Assembly (NCBI RefSeq): GCF_007741535.1
Contig: NZ_CP036525.1
Span: 3,472,001 to 3,536,000, forward strand
DNA length: 64,000 bases
Source of the DNA: Rubripirellula lacrimiformis
GTDB taxonomy: Bacteria > Planctomycetota > Planctomycetia > Pirellulales > Pirellulaceae
Direction of reading: 5' to 3'
Shown here: positions 1-9,624 of the stretch, piece after piece
Position numbering within the stretch: position 1 is the stretch's first letter
Layout: every line of letters begins with the position of its first letter
The notes under the pieces: model-generated
The model's database searches: none
Told to the model about the DNA's origin: nothing
The model's input: only the letters and a program-made list of their open reading frames with translations
Translations under genes and position numbers: made by a program

Positions 1-9
1 ATCAATCAT
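1..9 (-). CDS. Start of a further operon gene, cut by the window edge
   Basis: The stop codon of the 556-residue gene (TGA, bases 8-6 on the minus strand) sits inside an ATGA, so an ATG at 9-7 opens a new frame reading Met-Ile-Asp before the window ends. A four-base ATGA overlap is the classic sign of translational coupling in an operon. Only three codons are visible, so the product is unknown. If the operon is MADS-like, an ATP-binding protein would be the natural guess, but that is inference. Confidence 0.4.
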
Positions 10-1676
10 GCGGTGGTGCCCTCAGCTGCTTTCCTGCCTAGAGAAACGGTGAGGTTCTGGACGTTGAAATCGTCAGACAGCCCTCGGAAGAATCCGGTTT
101 GACGCAGCCGACGCTTGAAGGCGTTAAAGTTTTCGGCCGTCGCCGCACGGCTGCTCGTCGACTCCATCTCTCTGGGAGGCCGATCAATCAGAATGCCAAA
201 TCGCTGATGCATCCAAGTCAGGAATTCATCTAGTCGGATGCTGCCGACTGGCTGAGCCTCATTAATATTGGTCCGGTGACGATCGACAGCATTCAGATAC
301 ACGAGCGTGCGCAACAACTCGTCCGTCAAAACATATCGCCAATTTCGGGGGCCCTGAGTGTTGCCGAGCAACAGACCATAGGGGCGGTTGAGGCCGCCAA
401 CTCCCTTGTACCATTGCGTGTAAGCTTGCACACCTTTGGTTCGTTGTGAGTTGCAAAGAATCGCGTTCAGCGCAGAGATCGGTCCGTCACGCGAGATGAG
501 TTCCTGTAGATCAACTCTTGCTTGCTCGCGTTCAGCCTCTCCGGACAAATCGCTTTGGGTCTCGATCAAGATTGACTCCAACTCGATCTCTGCTCGGCCT
601 TGAATGTCACTCGACTGTTCTGCTGCTAGAAGTGCCTCGAGATACTGCGAAACGGGTGTTTCGGCGTCGTGCGGAATCAACTGCTTAAGAGTATCTGAAC
701 GTTCTCGCATCCGATGCAGCGTAAACAGCCGAAGATTGTCGCGAAAGAACCTTCCCGTCGACTCTAGGTCACGTTCTACACACGACCGGGCGAGTGAATC
801 ACTTTGGCTGGTTCGATCCCCCGTCACATCGACATAAACTTCGGGGTAATATTCATCGCCTTCTGGCATCTTGCCTGTCTGGCAAAGGGAAGACACATTC
901 CCCATCAAGCGAAGGCTATAGGTGAGCAAATCCAAATTGATCGTTGCCATCAGCATTCGGCTTACGAATGCTGGGGGCAAAAGTTGACGATATCCACGTA
1001 AAATCAATGCAATGTTTTGGCCAGCCTGTTTCGCTTGGTCCGGCAAACAGGGCCTGGGTTCACCCAATTCCTGATTGCTAATCGCCCCCGTTTCAAATTC
1101 TTCTAATACGCGAAGCGTTAGCAGGGTGTGGATATCTACTTCCGTGACGTCATCATAGTGGCCTTCGTAAGGAGGCGTGTCTTGCATCTGCAGCCCCGCG
1201 CCAAAAACGTCTTTTAGCCACTGTTGCAGATTCAATCGCCGCTCGTTCAGGGTTCCGCCGAGCCCGCAATTGCACATTGACGAGTACAGAAAACGTGGCA
1301 CATTTCGCTGTCGACTGGAGGGTTTCGGCATTCCCGTTTTGTAGGTGAGCAGAGTGTTGGGACTTACGAACTCTAGTTTTTCCCGGGTCTTTCCTCGTCC
1401 GGCTCGGCCCACTGTCAATGACACCGCGCGAACCCATTGCTCCAAGAGTGCTTTGTCGTCGCCTGAAAACCCCTCGATGCTTGAATTCTTAGCTAGTCCG
1501 TCAACGTAGCTGGCGATCGACCGGCTTTCGTTTTTCCCAGACGTTCGGTTTCGGCCGCGTGTGACCACAAGATTGAAAAGCGTGGGCAGAAGTCGTTCGA
1601 CATCAAAGTCATTCATCTCAATCGACAATAACAGGTCAAACTTCGTTCTCCGAAGCTGTTTTGGAATTTTAAACAT
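6..1676 (-). CDS. Unknown 556-aa protein of candidate defence operon
   Basis: I do not recognise a catalytic domain. The protein is soluble and basic at its N-terminus, with no signal peptide or membrane segment. Residues near 130-140 hold closely spaced cysteines (SSMCNCGLGG), and the C-terminal 60 residues are rich in Arg and Phe. Its ATG overlaps the end of the upstream kinase gene by eight bases (ATGTTTAA), so the two are probably translated together and may act in one complex. In MADS defence operons a protein of similar size (MAD7) follows the kinase. Position and length fit that, but the assignment is from memory and unproven. Expression should follow the helicase promoter near 7.3 kb. 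Confidence 0.85.
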   Translation of the reverse strand: MFKIPKQLRRTKFDLLLSIEMNDFDVERLLPTLFNLVVTRGRNRTSGKNESRSIASYVDGLAKNSSIEGFSGDDKALLEQWVRAVSLTVGRAGRGKTREKLEFVSPNTLLTYKTGMPKPSSRQRNVPRFLYSSMCNCGLGGTLNERRLNLQQWLKDVFGAGLQMQDTPPYEGHYDDVTEVDIHTLLTLRVLEEFETGAISNQELGEPRPCLPDQAKQAGQNIALILRGYRQLLPPAFVSRMLMATINLDLLTYSLRLMGNVSSLCQTGKMPEGDEYYPEVYVDVTGDRTSQSDSLARSCVERDLESTGRFFRDNLRLFTLHRMRERSDTLKQLIPHDAETPVSQYLEALLAAEQSSDIQGRAEIELESILIETQSDLSGEAEREQARVDLQELISRDGPISALNAILCNSQRTKGVQAYTQWYKGVGGLNRPYGLLLGNTQGPRNWRYVLTDELLRTLVYLNAVDRHRTNINEAQPVGSIRLDEFLTWMHQRFGILIDRPPREMESTSSRAATAENFNAFKRRLRQTGFFRGLSDDFNVQNLTVSLGRKAAEGTTA

Positions 1677-4600
1677 GGCTGATGATCGCCTCCTCCTGAC
1701 GCATGATCTTGCCTTCGCAAGACGTTACCAGACTCCGATCACCACCCGACGTCACCAGAACGACCTGGTGGGTTGGCGATGTCAACAGTTGTGCACGCAA
1801 CCTTTGGAAATCCATCAACAGAGATTGGTGTTCCGCCGCATCGGGCGTGGTCCCATCCGCTGCACGCATAAGCAGTTCAAACATTTGTAAACCGATAGTC
1901 ATCTCAGGCCAACCACTCACATGTCGGAGAATGAAGTGATCCGGGAGGTAATTCAAAAAGCGATTTGACGTTGTAGGTTGAATGAGTTCAAAAGCGTCCG
2001 CAGGCCATTGCCGGATCACGATCAGGGACTCATCACTTGAATCAAGCCGCAGAGCAAGTCCTTCCGCCGCTGCGTGTTTCGGGACTCGGTCTAAACGCCG
2101 AAGTCCAGTTAGAAGCCGGTCTTTCACGAGGGCAGGGTGCGTTTGACCCGACACGATGTCTCGAAACAGATGTAGAGATCGTGACGGAATCAACGTGCTC
2201 GGATCCGGCAGGCCACCCAGAACATCACGAGTGAGCTCGAAAAAGTAGCGACGCTTCAATTGATGCAATGCTTCGCGATCCTGGTCTTCGCCGATCGGAT
2301 ACTGGATGCCCGAAAGTGTGAATAGCGAATCCACATTTGGACGCGTTAAGCGACGCTCTAAAGCGGGATTAGAAACGCTGCCTGGATCAAGGCCCTTAAA
2401 TGCATCTAGAACAAGGTCTTCACCAGATTGTGGATCGAATGCGAGGTTGTAATAGCGTCGGTGGGCCAATTCGCTCGTAGCAGTGCTTGCGTGGATGTCC
2501 GAACAACCACGATCCCCCGTGATCATCCAAGCCATTGCACTCCGTAGGTCACGAATCGTAGGACGCCGTTCGGCAAGAAAGTAGACACCGGCCAGTAGAT
2601 CGACAAGCTTTTCGCGGGGCTGCGGATGTCGAAGCACTTGGGCGTTATGTCGGATTGGACATTCGTCGAATGCAGAGCAGCATCGGCAAACCTCGAAATT
2701 GTCCGGACGGACGAACGCGTCGAGTAACCCAAGGAACAGGGATTTCTGTTTGGGATCAGCCGAGATAGGGGCTCGATGCTTCAAATCGATCAGCAAGACT
2801 TCTTCCCCAGACACTTCGCCGTCCATTTGCTTTCGAAGAGCATCGCAAAGCCAACGAAAAGATAGTCGTTTCTTGGTGGTCAAATCTTTCAGCTTTCCGT
2901 CATTGATTGCCAACAACGCGGTGAACTGAATCTGGGGAGCTTTCCGTCCACTCAGCGGTTCAATCGCAGCCGTCAGCAATTCGTCCGACGAGAGATCTTC
3001 ATGAGACTCCGAGGCATCGAAGACAGAGCAAAAGACGTGTTCTTCGAGCTGAATTCTCCAACCTGCCGGATTGCGTTCCAACTCCCGTGCCCCCTTAGCC
3101 AGAAGTGCGCGCCGAACCTCTTCCAAAAAGGCCGTCTTGCCATCTCCTGGATTGCCACTGAGAGCAATGCACTTCCATCTGCCATCCAGGATTTCTGGCA
3201 GTAGGCGATCGTCGAGTTCCGTTGGAACGTAGGTGTCGCGACTGAAACCATTGTCCATCCCGCGGTTGTTCGCGTTTCCGAGCGTGCTATTGCGAAAAAC
3301 CTGTCGCAATTCCGTCACAAAGTCATTCGTTTCTTCTGACCTGTCCTGCGGTTCTGGAGCGATGGAGGCATTCCGCATTTGATCATCAGTTGGCTGATCG
3401 ACCTCCGGTACATGCAGTTCCACTTCCTCTTGCTTTTGGCGGCGGTAGGATTCGTTATAGACATCGAAAATAGCCTTCCGCATCGTACCCGCGTTTTCAA
3501 ACCGCCGCGATGGTTCAGGGCAACACGCTTTTTCGATCATCAGGCGGCACACCGATGATGTGATTGAATCTTCATCCGTCGAAAATGGGATCAGATCTGT
3601 CTTGTGCCTCTGGTTCCCTTCGACTCGGTAAGGCAAGCTACCCGAAAGCAATTCGAAGAGCACAACCCCCAGGCCATAGAGGTCGCAGGCTGGTGACCAC
3701 ACCGGAGATGGATGCTCGATCTCGGGGGCAAGGTAAAGCGGGGTGCCGACCCGACTGACGGCATCGGCTTGGTGTGAAGCGAGTCCTAGATCGATTAGCA
3801 AAACACGGGCGTCGTCATCCTCCGGCAACAGGATATTACCAGGCGTCACATCACGATGCAGCGTGTTTTGTTGATGCAAGTATTCCAACGCATCCAACAC
3901 GTCACCCGCGATCCTTCGAGCGAGTTTTTCAAGGATCTCCGGAGTTTGGCCACGCAGGCTTCGCCAAGCGTCTTTCAGTGACTGGCCCTCTACATACTCG
4001 AACTTCAGATGGTAGGGATCGTTCGGGCCGTAGACATCAATCAATTTTGGCAAGCAAGGATGCGTCAAGCGTCTAAGTGCTTGGAATTCAGCGTCGGCAA
4101 GGTACCCATGAATATCCGGTCGAATGATACGTTTCAAAACGACCAGTTCGTTACGCACTAAGTCGCGAGCAAGGAAAGCTTCGGCCGTCCCGCCCTTGCC
4201 CAGTTTTTCCATGACCTCGTACCGAACATCCGTGGGCCGCGACTCATCTGTGGACGAGGATTCCGACGAGGCTTGCGTCGCCTTTTCGATACTGGATTGA
4301 TAATCTCTAAGCGATGACGCAATCTCTGCCGCGGTGGGACGCCCGTTTGGTTCCAGTTCCAGTCCTTTATACACGGTCGATTCAATCACCGACGCGATGC
4401 TTTCGCCGATGTCTTTCCGCAAATCAATCAATGGTCCTGGTGCCCAGGTATCATCGCCTGGAGGTTCAGTCCCAGTGATCCAGTTCAATAGTACCGTCGC
4501 CAAGCTGTAGACGTCGCTTTTCGGAGATGCCGCCGATAGGTCGATACGACATTCTGCGGCGCGATAGGGATGGTCAACGTCGAAAAGGTGGGCGGTACCA

Positions 4601-5640
4601 ACGATGGTCTCCACCCCATCGATGTGTGCGATGACAAAATCAGAAAATTGAACCGTGTTGGACTTGGAATCCCACCAAACACGATCGGGGCGAAGACTGC
4701 GGTGCACTACGCCGCTAGCGTGGACCTTTGACAAAGTCTCAAAGGCACAGATTGCCATCGGGACAATCTGTTCTGGGCTCGGACCGCTGATAGCCATTTT
4801 GCTGAATGACACTCCACGGGGAGATTCGAATGGAATCACCAGAGCCCGACCATCATCCCAGGTAAAATAGGGCGACACCGATGGACAGAGATCCGCGCGG
4901 GAAAGTCTTTTCTGAGCGTCATATTGTCGCCGCACCGAAGAATCGTCCGCCGGTGCTTCGGACAAAGCGTCTTGACCGTAGAAGACCTTAAGAATTCGTT
5001 TGCTTCCGTCTTCATGCTGGGCTCTGAAGACTTTGCAGCCGAGTTGTTCGTCTAGCGCTTCCAGAAGTTTGTACTGTGCGATTGACGCCCATTCTTTGGG
5101 ACGCTGCGGAAGACGCGTCAGTGATTGAACAATTTCGTCTTTAAGTGCTCCAAATGCCGGATAGGTGCGTTGCTGATCGATTTCTTGCAATTTGCCAGCG
5201 GCATTTGATAGCGTAACGACACGTTGACGGGCTCTCGGATCCGAAAGATTGAGCGTCGCCGACGGCGAAGACATCAGAACGACCGCTTTGACTAATTCCG
5301 CACGATAGGCCGCCAGTTTTTGCGGCCAACGATTCTTCAGTACACCGGCGAGAACTTTAGCGCACATTTCGCTTTGGTTGATAGGGTTGCCGCGAATCTC
5401 ACCACGCACAAGCCAACCGTTTTCGGTTCCACGAATAGCGCCCGACCAACCTTTTTCTTCGATAGTAAAAACAGTTCTCTTGGCGACACAGATAAAATCA
5501 ATTTCACGACTGAGTGTGCCTGACGAGATTTGCTTGTTGCAAATCAACGTCCAGTCAGTCGGCAATTCCGCTGCCAGTTGTTCTGCAACGGCACGTTCGT
5601 TCGGTCCGGAGAAGTCGTCAAAGGAATGGATTTGTGCCAT
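1669..5640 (-). CDS. NERD nuclease-pseudokinase-Ser/Thr kinase-ATPase (PglW/MAD6-like)
   Basis: A 1323-residue multidomain protein. Residues about 10-130 form a NERD nuclease-related domain with Asp48 and the EEK triplet at 61-63. Residues about 195-450 form a kinase fold with Lys218, but the catalytic loop reads HRSLRP (313-318, Asp replaced by Ser) and the metal motif is DFV (334-336), so it is probably a pseudokinase. Residues about 474-735 form a second kinase with glycine loop GKGGTAEAF (481-489), Lys503, HRD (595-597), DLG (617-619) and APE (638-640), apparently active. The C-terminal third is a P-loop ATPase with GNPGDGKT (829-836) and a cysteine cluster (985, 987, 988, 994) that may bind zinc. 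NERD plus kinase is the known layout of PglW in BREX type 2 and of the MADS kinase. It lies 32 bases downstream of the helicase gene. A phage-sensing or signalling role is inferred. Confidence 0.9.
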   Translation of the reverse strand: MAQIHSFDDFSGPNERAVAEQLAAELPTDWTLICNKQISSGTLSREIDFICVAKRTVFTIEEKGWSGAIRGTENGWLVRGEIRGNPINQSEMCAKVLAGVLKNRWPQKLAAYRAELVKAVVLMSSPSATLNLSDPRARQRVVTLSNAAGKLQEIDQQRTYPAFGALKDEIVQSLTRLPQRPKEWASIAQYKLLEALDEQLGCKVFRAQHEDGSKRILKVFYGQDALSEAPADDSSVRRQYDAQKRLSRADLCPSVSPYFTWDDGRALVIPFESPRGVSFSKMAISGPSPEQIVPMAICAFETLSKVHASGVVHRSLRPDRVWWDSKSNTVQFSDFVIAHIDGVETIVGTAHLFDVDHPYRAAECRIDLSAASPKSDVYSLATVLLNWITGTEPPGDDTWAPGPLIDLRKDIGESIASVIESTVYKGLELEPNGRPTAAEIASSLRDYQSSIEKATQASSESSSTDESRPTDVRYEVMEKLGKGGTAEAFLARDLVRNELVVLKRIIRPDIHGYLADAEFQALRRLTHPCLPKLIDVYGPNDPYHLKFEYVEGQSLKDAWRSLRGQTPEILEKLARRIAGDVLDALEYLHQQNTLHRDVTPGNILLPEDDDARVLLIDLGLASHQADAVSRVGTPLYLAPEIEHPSPVWSPACDLYGLGVVLFELLSGSLPYRVEGNQRHKTDLIPFSTDEDSITSSVCRLMIEKACCPEPSRRFENAGTMRKAIFDVYNESYRRQKQEEVELHVPEVDQPTDDQMRNASIAPEPQDRSEETNDFVTELRQVFRNSTLGNANNRGMDNGFSRDTYVPTELDDRLLPEILDGRWKCIALSGNPGDGKTAFLEEVRRALLAKGARELERNPAGWRIQLEEHVFCSVFDASESHEDLSSDELLTAAIEPLSGRKAPQIQFTALLAINDGKLKDLTTKKRLSFRWLCDALRKQMDGEVSGEEVLLIDLKHRAPISADPKQKSLFLGLLDAFVRPDNFEVCRCCSAFDECPIRHNAQVLRHPQPREKLVDLLAGVYFLAERRPTIRDLRSAMAWMITGDRGCSDIHASTATSELAHRRYYNLAFDPQSGEDLVLDAFKGLDPGSVSNPALERRLTRPNVDSLFTLSGIQYPIGEDQDREALHQLKRRYFFELTRDVLGGLPDPSTLIPSRSLHLFRDIVSGQTHPALVKDRLLTGLRRLDRVPKHAAAEGLALRLDSSDESLIVIRQWPADAFELIQPTTSNRFLNYLPDHFILRHVSGWPEMTIGLQMFELLMRAADGTTPDAAEHQSLLMDFQRLRAQLLTSPTHQVVLVTSGGDRSLVTSCEGKIMRQEEAIISHV

Positions 5641-5672
5641 ATTGTTTAAGTCGCTTATGACGTTCTGGTGAT

Positions 5673-7295
5673 TTATTGGTTTGTTGTGACGGCCTGGAAG
5701 TCATCCGGCCACAGTTGTTTGACAACTTGCGTTCCCTGCAGAATCTCCGCAGGAATCTTTTGCGAGCTATAGACAAGGTACAAAATGTCCGCCGCACGAC
5801 TGCTTGCGACGTAACGGCGACAGGCATGCTCGGGAGTGTCCATCAAGTCTGCCTGATCCCAGCCCAACACGAATACACAACTCGCTTCGTGTCCCTTGGC
5901 GACTTCAGGTGAGGCGACCTGGATACCAGCTGCCGCAGCGGCATTCAATCGCCCCGGCGTTTGAGTGTTGAAACCTCGATCAGCAAGGGCATTAATCAAT
6001 TGCCGACGTCCTGGCGTGGAAAAACAGACCGCCATGATTTCTGTCGGCATCAAATTGACCTCAGAGATCAGCCGGGCCATCTCGGTGACAACCATTTCCA
6101 CACACTCGTGCGGATTTTCAGCCCAAACAAGCCGAACGGGCTCGGCGTCATCGTTCTCTTTGATCTCGAAATGTCTGCTCGGTCGACATCCGAAGAAGTC
6201 TGAAAAGCCCTGGATCACGTCAGTGGATCGGTAGCTCCGATTGAGCCGCTCGAATTGAACGGGTTGCCGCCGGGCCGAATAGTCGATTGCAGGGCGGACT
6301 CGAATATTCTGGCTCGGATCGAGGGAAAGCGTCAGTCCGCCACGCCCGGGCCGAACCAATTGTTCGACCAACTCAATCAGAACGCCGCCAAAGTCTTGGG
6401 CCTCGTCGATCAGAATCGCATCGTACTGGGGCTCGAGGGGCAATCGCCTTAGCAAGTCTCGGCAGCGATGGTCCGCATCGCTGGGATCCGCCAACGACAA
6501 GTCGACGCCATGGCGAGATAGCACATCGGCAAAAACCAGAGTCTGGATATTGTCGCCGCTAAATTTCTGCTTTGGACCGCTCAATTTTGCCAGCCAACTC
6601 GAAAGTGCATCAGCGAGCGAGCGATTCCAAGTGATCAACAAGACGTTTGCGTTCTCGATTGCTTCGGATAGCCAAAGGGCACGTGCGACAAGTACTAGTG
6701 ATTTACCTGATCCCGGGCCGCCTTCGATAATCGTCGTCCCCGGATTTATGCGGCTTGTGACTTCGTTCTGCAAGCGGTCCAGTGTTGCCCGACGTTCAAC
6801 TCGAGCCATCCTCCCCTGATCCCGAACAAGTTCCACTCGCTTCCATTCTCGTTTCGGAAAAAGAAGACTTGAGAGCGTCGCGTAGTCAACGTCAGAAAGC
6901 GCTTCGAAATCTGGCGCAGTATTTGGAAAGTCAGCCAAATTATTTCGGAATTGGGTCTGATCGATCGGCAACAGACCCTTAAGCGATTCTGAATCTGTCG
7001 AGTCGACGCCAGGCAGCAGTACAAAGGCATCCAATTCGGCGTCCACGCCGGTTGAACCAATCAGCGTTTCCAGCTCGTCCAACGAATCGGCTAGCATCGA
7101 CTCAATCTGCGTACCAAATGCGCCGCATTGCTCGATCACATTCGGAATCGAACCATCCAAAATCAGCAGAATGCGAATGTGGTGATCGCGGTCAAGCGAA
7201 ACGAACAACTGGCTGCACTGGTGCCGAAGGGCTGGCTGCCCAGTTTCACCAGCATGCTGGAAACGTCGGATCGTTTCGGAAATACCGTCGGTCAT
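5673..7295 (-). CDS. SF1 (UvrD/PcrA-like) DNA helicase of candidate defence operon
   Basis: A 540-residue superfamily 1 helicase. After a unique N-terminal domain of about 165 residues come Walker A GGPGSGKS (192-199), Walker B DEAQD (297-301), motif III around SLDPSQ (324-329), motif IV LNRSYRS (351-357), motif V SPEVAKGHEA (462-471) and motif VI YVASSRA (495-501). The length is shorter than full UvrD (about 720), so the 1B/2B subdomains are reduced, as in helicases attached to defence and repair modules. It is the first gene of the leftward operon, and its promoter should lie in 7296-7410. The N-terminal 165 residues have no motif I recognise and may be the contact to the partner proteins. 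Confidence 0.92.
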   Translation of the reverse strand: MTDGISETIRRFQHAGETGQPALRHQCSQLFVSLDRDHHIRILLILDGSIPNVIEQCGAFGTQIESMLADSLDELETLIGSTGVDAELDAFVLLPGVDSTDSESLKGLLPIDQTQFRNNLADFPNTAPDFEALSDVDYATLSSLLFPKREWKRVELVRDQGRMARVERRATLDRLQNEVTSRINPGTTIIEGGPGSGKSLVLVARALWLSEAIENANVLLITWNRSLADALSSWLAKLSGPKQKFSGDNIQTLVFADVLSRHGVDLSLADPSDADHRCRDLLRRLPLEPQYDAILIDEAQDFGGVLIELVEQLVRPGRGGLTLSLDPSQNIRVRPAIDYSARRQPVQFERLNRSYRSTDVIQGFSDFFGCRPSRHFEIKENDDAEPVRLVWAENPHECVEMVVTEMARLISEVNLMPTEIMAVCFSTPGRRQLINALADRGFNTQTPGRLNAAAAAGIQVASPEVAKGHEASCVFVLGWDQADLMDTPEHACRRYVASSRAADILYLVYSSQKIPAEILQGTQVVKQLWPDDFQAVTTNQ

Positions 7296-9024: not shown

Positions 9025-9624
9025 CTAGGCCCGTTGATCGATGATTCGATAGACAGTCGGCCTGCTGACGCTTGTCGCTCTCGCGATCGCGGACTTGCTC
9101 TTTCCTTCGCCGTGCAGTCTTAGGATCATCTCGACCTGGTCTTGAGTGACTGACAGGAGGCGCCCCTTCTCGGATCCTCCCCACGTCTTGCCGTCCGCCT
9201 TTGCCCTGGCCTGGCCGGCGAGCACCCTTTCGGCCCGGACTTCGGTTTCGAACTGGGCTACCGATGCCAGCACGTTGGCCATCAGCCGTCCTGCCGCTGT
9301 TCCGAGATCCAATCCATCCTTGATCGACACCAGACGCACCTTCCACTTCGGTAGGTCGTCGAAAAGGGCTGTTAATCCCTTTGCGGTTCGACCTAGGCGG
9401 TCCAGACGCCAGCAGATCAACTTCGATACGCGTCCCGCCTGCATGGCCGCTTCCAGCTTTGACCATCCTGGACGATCCATCACCTTGCCGGTGAACTTGT
9501 CCCGGTACCACTGAACCGGTTCGTCGCCAACGTGGGCTTGAACCCATTTCTTGAGATCCGCTTCCTGCGAGGCGGTGTCTTGGGCTTTGGTGCTGACGCG
9601 AACGTAAATGGCGATGTGTCTCAT
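9025..9624 (-). CDS. Small serine recombinase (resolvase/invertase family)
   Basis: A 199-residue resolvase. The catalytic serine is Ser11 in YVRVSTKAQD, with Arg9 beside it, and the helper arginines are Arg73 and Arg76 in CWRLDRLGR. The C-terminal 50 residues form a helix-turn-helix of the resolvase type (KSKSAIARATSVSRPTVYRI). The length is normal for Tn3-type resolvases and DNA invertases. No transposase gene lies next to it, so it is either the remnant of a transposon or a stand-alone resolvase of the island. A perfect 28-bp palindrome 41 bases upstream of its start may be its own binding site. Start chosen at ATG 9624, preceded by AAGG. Confidence 0.95.
   Translation of the reverse strand: MRHIAIYVRVSTKAQDTASQEADLKKWVQAHVGDEPVQWYRDKFTGKVMDRPGWSKLEAAMQAGRVSKLICWRLDRLGRTAKGLTALFDDLPKWKVRLVSIKDGLDLGTAAGRLMANVLASVAQFETEVRAERVLAGQARAKADGKTWGGSEKGRLLSVTQDQVEMILRLHGEGKSKSAIARATSVSRPTVYRIIDQRA

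Follow-up and report, generated by a model that had tools for sequence, protein, structure and literature searches.

We analysed a 64,000-nucleotide stretch of Rubripirellula lacrimiformis DNA (the window, C1:3472001-3536000, where C1 is the single contig of the 8.54-Mb genome) together with the sequence to its left. A candidate defence operon of eight leftward genes occupies about 22.6 kb, from C1:3456743 (cnuD-like) to C1:3479295 (helicase), with an inserted IS66 element counted in; its features in the window all lie on the minus strand. A first-pass annotation of the window had described three leftward open reading frames (ORFs), and the ORF list reproduced their positions, the 32-base gap between helicase and MAD6, the 8-base overlap of MAD6 with MAD7 and the 4-base overlap of MAD7 with MAD8. 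The same annotation expected at least one more gene, which was borne out but was too low a count, as there are five more, namely a split MAD8 and four CoCoNuT-like genes. When 20 kb were read to the left, as it had proposed, the operon continued through MAD8 and the CoCoNuT-like quartet. A spacing of 9 bases separates the 3′ part of MAD8 from the start of the cnuA-like gene, and within the CoCoNuT-like quartet that closes the operon, successive genes overlap by 4, 4 and 11 bases. The operon unites a DndFGH/MADS-type restriction engine with a CoCoNuT-like, McrBC-related module. Its unusual feature is the junction between MAD6-7-8 and the CoCoNuT core, which lies outside the window. Each half is already known and their joint occurrence appears unreported; we found no report of the combination in the literature, including the available parts of PMC12458937 and PMC12707154. 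Upstream of the operon, window positions 9025-9624 encode a resolvase-type recombinase (199 aa, 3e-35).

The first gene (window 5673..7295) encodes a UvrD-like helicase of superfamily 1 (SF1), 540 aa long, in agreement with the first-pass assignment (Pfam UvrD-helicase, 2.1e-11; AAA_19, 4.8e-7). It is not of the UPF1-like CnuH type and carries no Vsr. The protein database holds 16 close relatives at 47-71% identity, and a search against PDB sequences gave only weak HelD matches. Across the phylum, 4/392 genomes matched at E 1e-10, which were its own and three others at 27-31%. Across the order, 99/396 genomes matched, all except its own at or below 44.2 bits, and we read these as ordinary SF1 helicases.

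The second gene (1669..5640) encodes a 1323-aa protein of MAD6/DndF type with the proposed arrangement of NERD domain, pseudokinase, kinase and P-loop ATPase core. The NERD nuclease domain (aa 14-108; 5317..5601; Pfam, 1.6e-14) keeps its D..EEK motif. The Pfam protein kinase match (8.8e-49) falls into two stretches, of which the first has HRS in place of HRD and the second (aa 474-715; 3496..4221) is an active-type Ser/Thr kinase domain with HRD, including the Asp597 singled out earlier, and DLG. The ATPase core (aa 805-1093; 2362..3228), with GNPGDGKT at aa 829, is the best stretch against the SspF profile of PADLOC (9.2e-25). In an alignment of 17 MAD6 proteins (that of the window, those of 14 of the 22 loci described below and those of two plasmids), all 17 keep three features, namely the D..[ED]xK motif of NERD, the P-loop and, in the second kinase, the catalytic Asp. 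In the first kinase this Asp is missing from 16/17, L031 being the exception that retains it.

The MADS6 profile of NCBIfam matched this protein at 1.2e-127 and 427.1 bits, below its cut-off of 460. The domains had been likened to those of both BREX type 2 (PglW) and MADS, and only the kinship with MADS stood. A variant of BREX type 2 (Pgl) would account for the NERD domain followed by tandem kinases, a part that the PglW profiles match at 155.3 and 162.7 bits. Both scores fall far short of the PglW cut-off (990), the C-terminal half of MAD6 is SspF-like, and neither PglX, PglZ nor any other BREX protein was found in the operon. We rejected the assignment to BREX type 2 on the best score and the missing Pgl partners, and regard such a variant as highly improbable.

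The third gene (6..1676) encodes a protein of 556 aa that had been left as unknown; it is instead MAD7/DndG, a predicted DNA-binding subunit with a DndG fold. Its score against the MADS7 profile was 372.6 bits, below the NCBIfam cut-off of 410. PADLOC and NCBIfam relate the second and third genes to MAD6 and MAD7, a kinship with MADS that the first-pass annotation had named. For the predicted MAD7 model, Foldseek by itself returned nothing significant, and the match to the DndG fold was seen on a second look at the Foldseek candidates. Profiles of MAD7 and of CnuD found no convincing match among PDB sequences. The fourth gene, MAD8/DndH, starts at window base 9 (its first bases are window 1..9), and its 5′ piece (C1:3471577-3472009) is separated by the IS66 element from the remainder (C1:3464158-3468979). 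The interrupted MAD8 scored 44.2 bits against its NCBIfam profile, below the cut-off of 175. A D..EVK nuclease motif is accompanied by a DndH-like HerA domain at the C-terminal end; this PD-(D/E)xK motif makes the H subunit a predicted nuclease. Among 17 aligned MAD8 proteins (that of the window, 14 loci and two plasmids), the motif D..E[VI]K is kept in 17/17 and the HerA P-loop in all 15 that extend to HerA.

The IS66 element in MAD8 (C1:3468980-3471576; L003:6980-9576) is 2597 bases long, has terminal repeats, an 8-base target duplication and a transposase recognised by Pfam, and is flanked by MAD8 pieces that share one frame. The insertion looks recent, because a twin about 160 kb away (C1:3629630-3632226) is 100% identical over all 2597 bases. 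Because the element splits the gene, MAD8, and hence the engine, is probably inactive in the window strain, and the genes downstream of the element may be affected. Left of the last operon gene there is another IS66, which belongs to a different type present in eight copies. Such damage could mean that the operon is the dead remnant of a decaying MADS-like system that lacks mad1-mad5, which would also fit the absence of MAD2. However, the remaining seven genes are open frames and their examined catalytic motifs are kept, which makes any decay recent at most, and relatives in several phyla have one long MAD8 frame with no methylase detected. We therefore consider a dead remnant unlikely. At L010:11722-19685 (Thermogemmatispora tikiterensis) MAD8 is likewise split, into a frame of 297 aa, other ORFs and then a frame of 1454 aa, so disruption of MAD8 has probably happened more than once.

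Beyond MAD8 lie the cnuA-like (C1:3462952-3464148), cnuB-like (C1:3460940-3462955), cnuC-like (C1:3459270-3460943) and cnuD-like (C1:3456743-3459280) genes. The CnuB-like protein is a McrB-type GTPase whose NxD motif appears as NED in 5/5 aligned proteins; a crude heptad score gave a coiled-coil stretch in 5/5 (controls, 32, 0 and 0 residues). The CnuC-like protein has a McrC-like DUF2357 (5e-8) and has lost the nuclease motif, with ExK missing at the aligned site in 5/5 rows. The CnuD-like protein is a separate Hsp70-like protein with helical repeats, as in Type III-B. According to the available text of PMC11090510, Type III-B CoCoNuTs consist of CnuH-Vsr, CnuA, CnuB, CnuC and CnuD, with CnuH-Vsr, in which a Vsr nuclease is fused to a UPF1-like helicase, as the output, and come mostly from Alphaproteobacteria. 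The operon resembles them in having CnuA, an NxD coiled-coil CnuB, a CnuC that lacks the nuclease motif and an Hsp70-like CnuD in that order, but differs in that the upstream position is held by the UvrD-like helicase and MAD6-7-8 rather than by CnuH-Vsr. The three CoCoNuT comparators that were scanned carry AAA_11/AAA_12 and MTES_1575. No CnuH fused to Vsr was found among the operon proteins, to which that search was confined, and their sole helicase is the 540-aa UvrD-like protein. Type III-B-like CoCoNuTs are also present at L043, L044, L046 and L048 in other genomes of the same phylum, and at L043 CnuD lies within a 1502-aa frame. In searches of plasmids, CnuB matched 265 records, the 12 listed having 37-44% identity over 57-68% of its length, and CnuD matched none. 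Viral contigs, scanned with alignments of MAD7 and of CnuD, yielded no relative.

MADS gene content was taken here from the family libraries and from a Piscinibacter plasmid (L030) with a complete system, mad2 to mad8 in one row; in Hymenobacter, a methylase and a specificity subunit accompany MAD6-7-8. The order and sizes of MAD6-7-8 at our locus are near those of the Piscinibacter plasmid (1391, 557 and 1858 aa). In contrast to MADS, all three proteins fall under the NCBIfam equivalog cut-offs (460, 410 and 175), and the operon has neither a MAD2 methylase nor a MAD5 specificity subunit; on these grounds a full MADS was rejected. With DndFGH/SspFGH the locus shares a middle subunit of DndG fold, an SspF-like MAD6 core, and a MAD8 with a DndH-like HerA end and D..EVK. 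The F-G-H gene order, the P-loop F subunit and the large H subunit with a HerA/FtsK domain are also shared, although H is split by IS66 here. Unlike those systems, no phosphorothioation gene was found in the genome by a PF01507 search.

As the first-pass annotation had it for the first 7.3 kb, the operon proteins include no methylase, PglX or PglZ, and no mad2-mad5 adjoin them. Elsewhere in the genome, N6_Mtase, the one methylase family searched genome-wide, matched at three places, all more than 1.2 Mb away; the highest MAD2 score among them was 53 bits (cut-off, 720), and no MAD2 was found. PF01507 matched just two genes, CysD and CysH, and no sulfur transferase of DndC/SspD type. An unlinked DNA mark may exist elsewhere in the genome, as these searches covered N6_Mtase and PF01507 only.

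To place the engine in a wider context, we scanned a species-genome collection with a MAD7 pattern, which gave relatives at 22 loci; at L019 and L027 the stretch examined stops within MAD7, and the MAD7 of L017 was counted from the pattern scan. A MAD6-like gene lies directly upstream in 21/22 and MAD8 directly downstream in 21/22, with all three present in 20/22. MAD6 is in two frames at L018 and L021. MAD8 is a single long frame (1675-2101 aa) in 15/22; it is cut by a contig end in four (L007, L008, L011 and L018), split at L010, present only as a fragment at L020 and missing at L019. By record titles, the loci belong to Chloroflexota, Frankia, Armatimonadetes, Planctomycetaceae, Gemmatimonadetes, Blastocatellia and Gracilibacteria. 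Among closer relatives, the MAD7 family was not matched in any of 21 same-genus genomes (completeness 66-99%), and a search of the phylum found it in its own genome only (1/392). When 60 genomes (its own and 59 relatives) were searched with MAD7, one other match was obtained, a weak one of 43 bits in the same order, indicating that the MAD6-7-8 system is accessory, as had been proposed. That weak match (G045:C79:11082-11366; L006) lies in a 515-aa frame and may be a distant DndG/SspG.

The partners of the MAD6-7-8 cassette vary, because a BrxL gene lies upstream of it at L013:3633-5678 (Ktedonobacter sp. SOSP1-85) and an Eco57I methylase is found at L021 and L022. These two account for two of the 3/73 neighbouring proteins that matched Eco57I methylase among the families shown. 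The neighbour scan covered 73 of 84 neighbouring ORFs from 16/22 loci, and with 25/73 matched families shown, further methylase families are possibly hidden. A phmmer search of all loci with two MADS methylases found, besides the source plasmids, only L021 and missed L022. It is not unusual for a cassette to lack a MADS methylase. This fits the published view (available text of PMC10853773) that DndFGH is often standalone and that DndF can carry NERD with inactive and active tandem kinases. The earlier suggestion of a new variant of a kinase-signalling system held in so far as the operon is a candidate defence operon, but kinase-bearing DndF and standalone DndFGH had already been published in that source.

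Does the junction recur? Relatives of MAD7 (73%), the helicase (49%) and CnuD (51%) were each found on a contig of 36,224 bases, and relatives of MAD7 (73%) and the helicase (52%) on one of 23,791 bases; in both cases a shared contig was judged from equal size. When sizes were drawn randomly from a broad range, the triple coincidence arose in 1/20,000 trials. A coincidence at 3763 bases (a MAD7 match and a 28% helicase match) was not used. Several observations weigh against treating the eight genes as one system. The complete operon was found in one genome only, and the middle genes of the 36,224-base case, which rests on equal sizes, were not seen. The nearest helicase relative (71%) is on a contig of 53,020 bases, a size at which no MAD7 match was listed; the same holds for helicase relatives on contigs of 45,316 and 115,063 bases and for one CnuD relative on a contig of 54,432 bases, so linkage is not strict. 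Within the stretches examined, 0/22 MAD7 loci have the helicase or CoCoNuT genes, and 0/7 CnuD loci have MAD6-7-8, several of the latter ending at contig ends.

Both parts could be neighbours that share a transcript. On this account, a standalone MAD6-7-8 with its helicase lies in an island beside a CoCoNuT-like remnant that lacks CnuH. The absence of detected CoCoNuT genes from all 22 MAD6-7-8 loci speaks for it, as do four of the five Thermogemmatispora loci, which adjoin a thiamine-pyrophosphate enzyme and probably other sugar-metabolism genes rather than modification genes, and the superoperons that join CoCoNuTs with other restriction systems (available text of PMC11090510). Against it, no nuclease is recognised within the CoCoNuT part at this locus, the MAD8-cnuA junction measures just 9 bases, and the arrangement likely recurs on the 36,224-base contig. 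We take two separate systems seriously as a possibility while leaning against it. The reading we favour, that the eight genes form one composite candidate defence system, we hold at even odds. This composite reading draws on gene order, coupling, domain identities, kept and lost motifs, two predicted folds, an operon without CnuH-Vsr and a genome in which neither a MAD2-type methylase nor a DndC-type gene was found; that the halves act together, what they sense and that the kinase gates the nuclease are what we infer.

In the composite system, going by what is established for DndFGH, McrBC and CoCoNuTs, MAD7 would bind DNA, and MAD8 would pump it in the manner of HerA/FtsK and cut it with its PD-(D/E)xK nuclease. 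MAD6 may sense nucleotides through its P-loop core and signal by phosphorylation, its NERD nuclease and kinase/pseudokinase pair serving as a regulator or back-up effector. CnuABCD would form a GTPase complex close to the membrane, with CnuD as its sensor of infection, CnuA and CnuB as a predicted membrane-tethered coiled-coil pair that includes the NxD GTPase, and CnuC as a McrC-like activator that lacks the nuclease motif. The output role of CnuH-Vsr may have passed to the UvrD-like helicase together with MAD6-7-8, and CnuABCD may switch on MAD6-7-8, a step suggested by the gene order and the missing CnuH. The stronger proposal, hybrid immunity in which a CoCoNuT core without its own helicase-nuclease drives a kinase-bearing DndFGH/MADS engine with no dedicated self-mark, is tentative and in our judgement falls a little short of an even chance.

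Unmodified DNA is the target of SspFGH and DndFGH, which damage the host if the mark is absent (available text of PMC8092258). A DndFGH-type engine in a genome where no matching modification was found is a puzzle, and the CoCoNuT junction suggests a separate infection sensor that gates the engine. If the hybrid is real, self and foreign DNA would be distinguished by the sensing of infection rather than by a mark on the DNA. For the CoCoNuT Type III core, a prediction from sequence alone (available text of PMC11090510), the junction would also provide a visible output.
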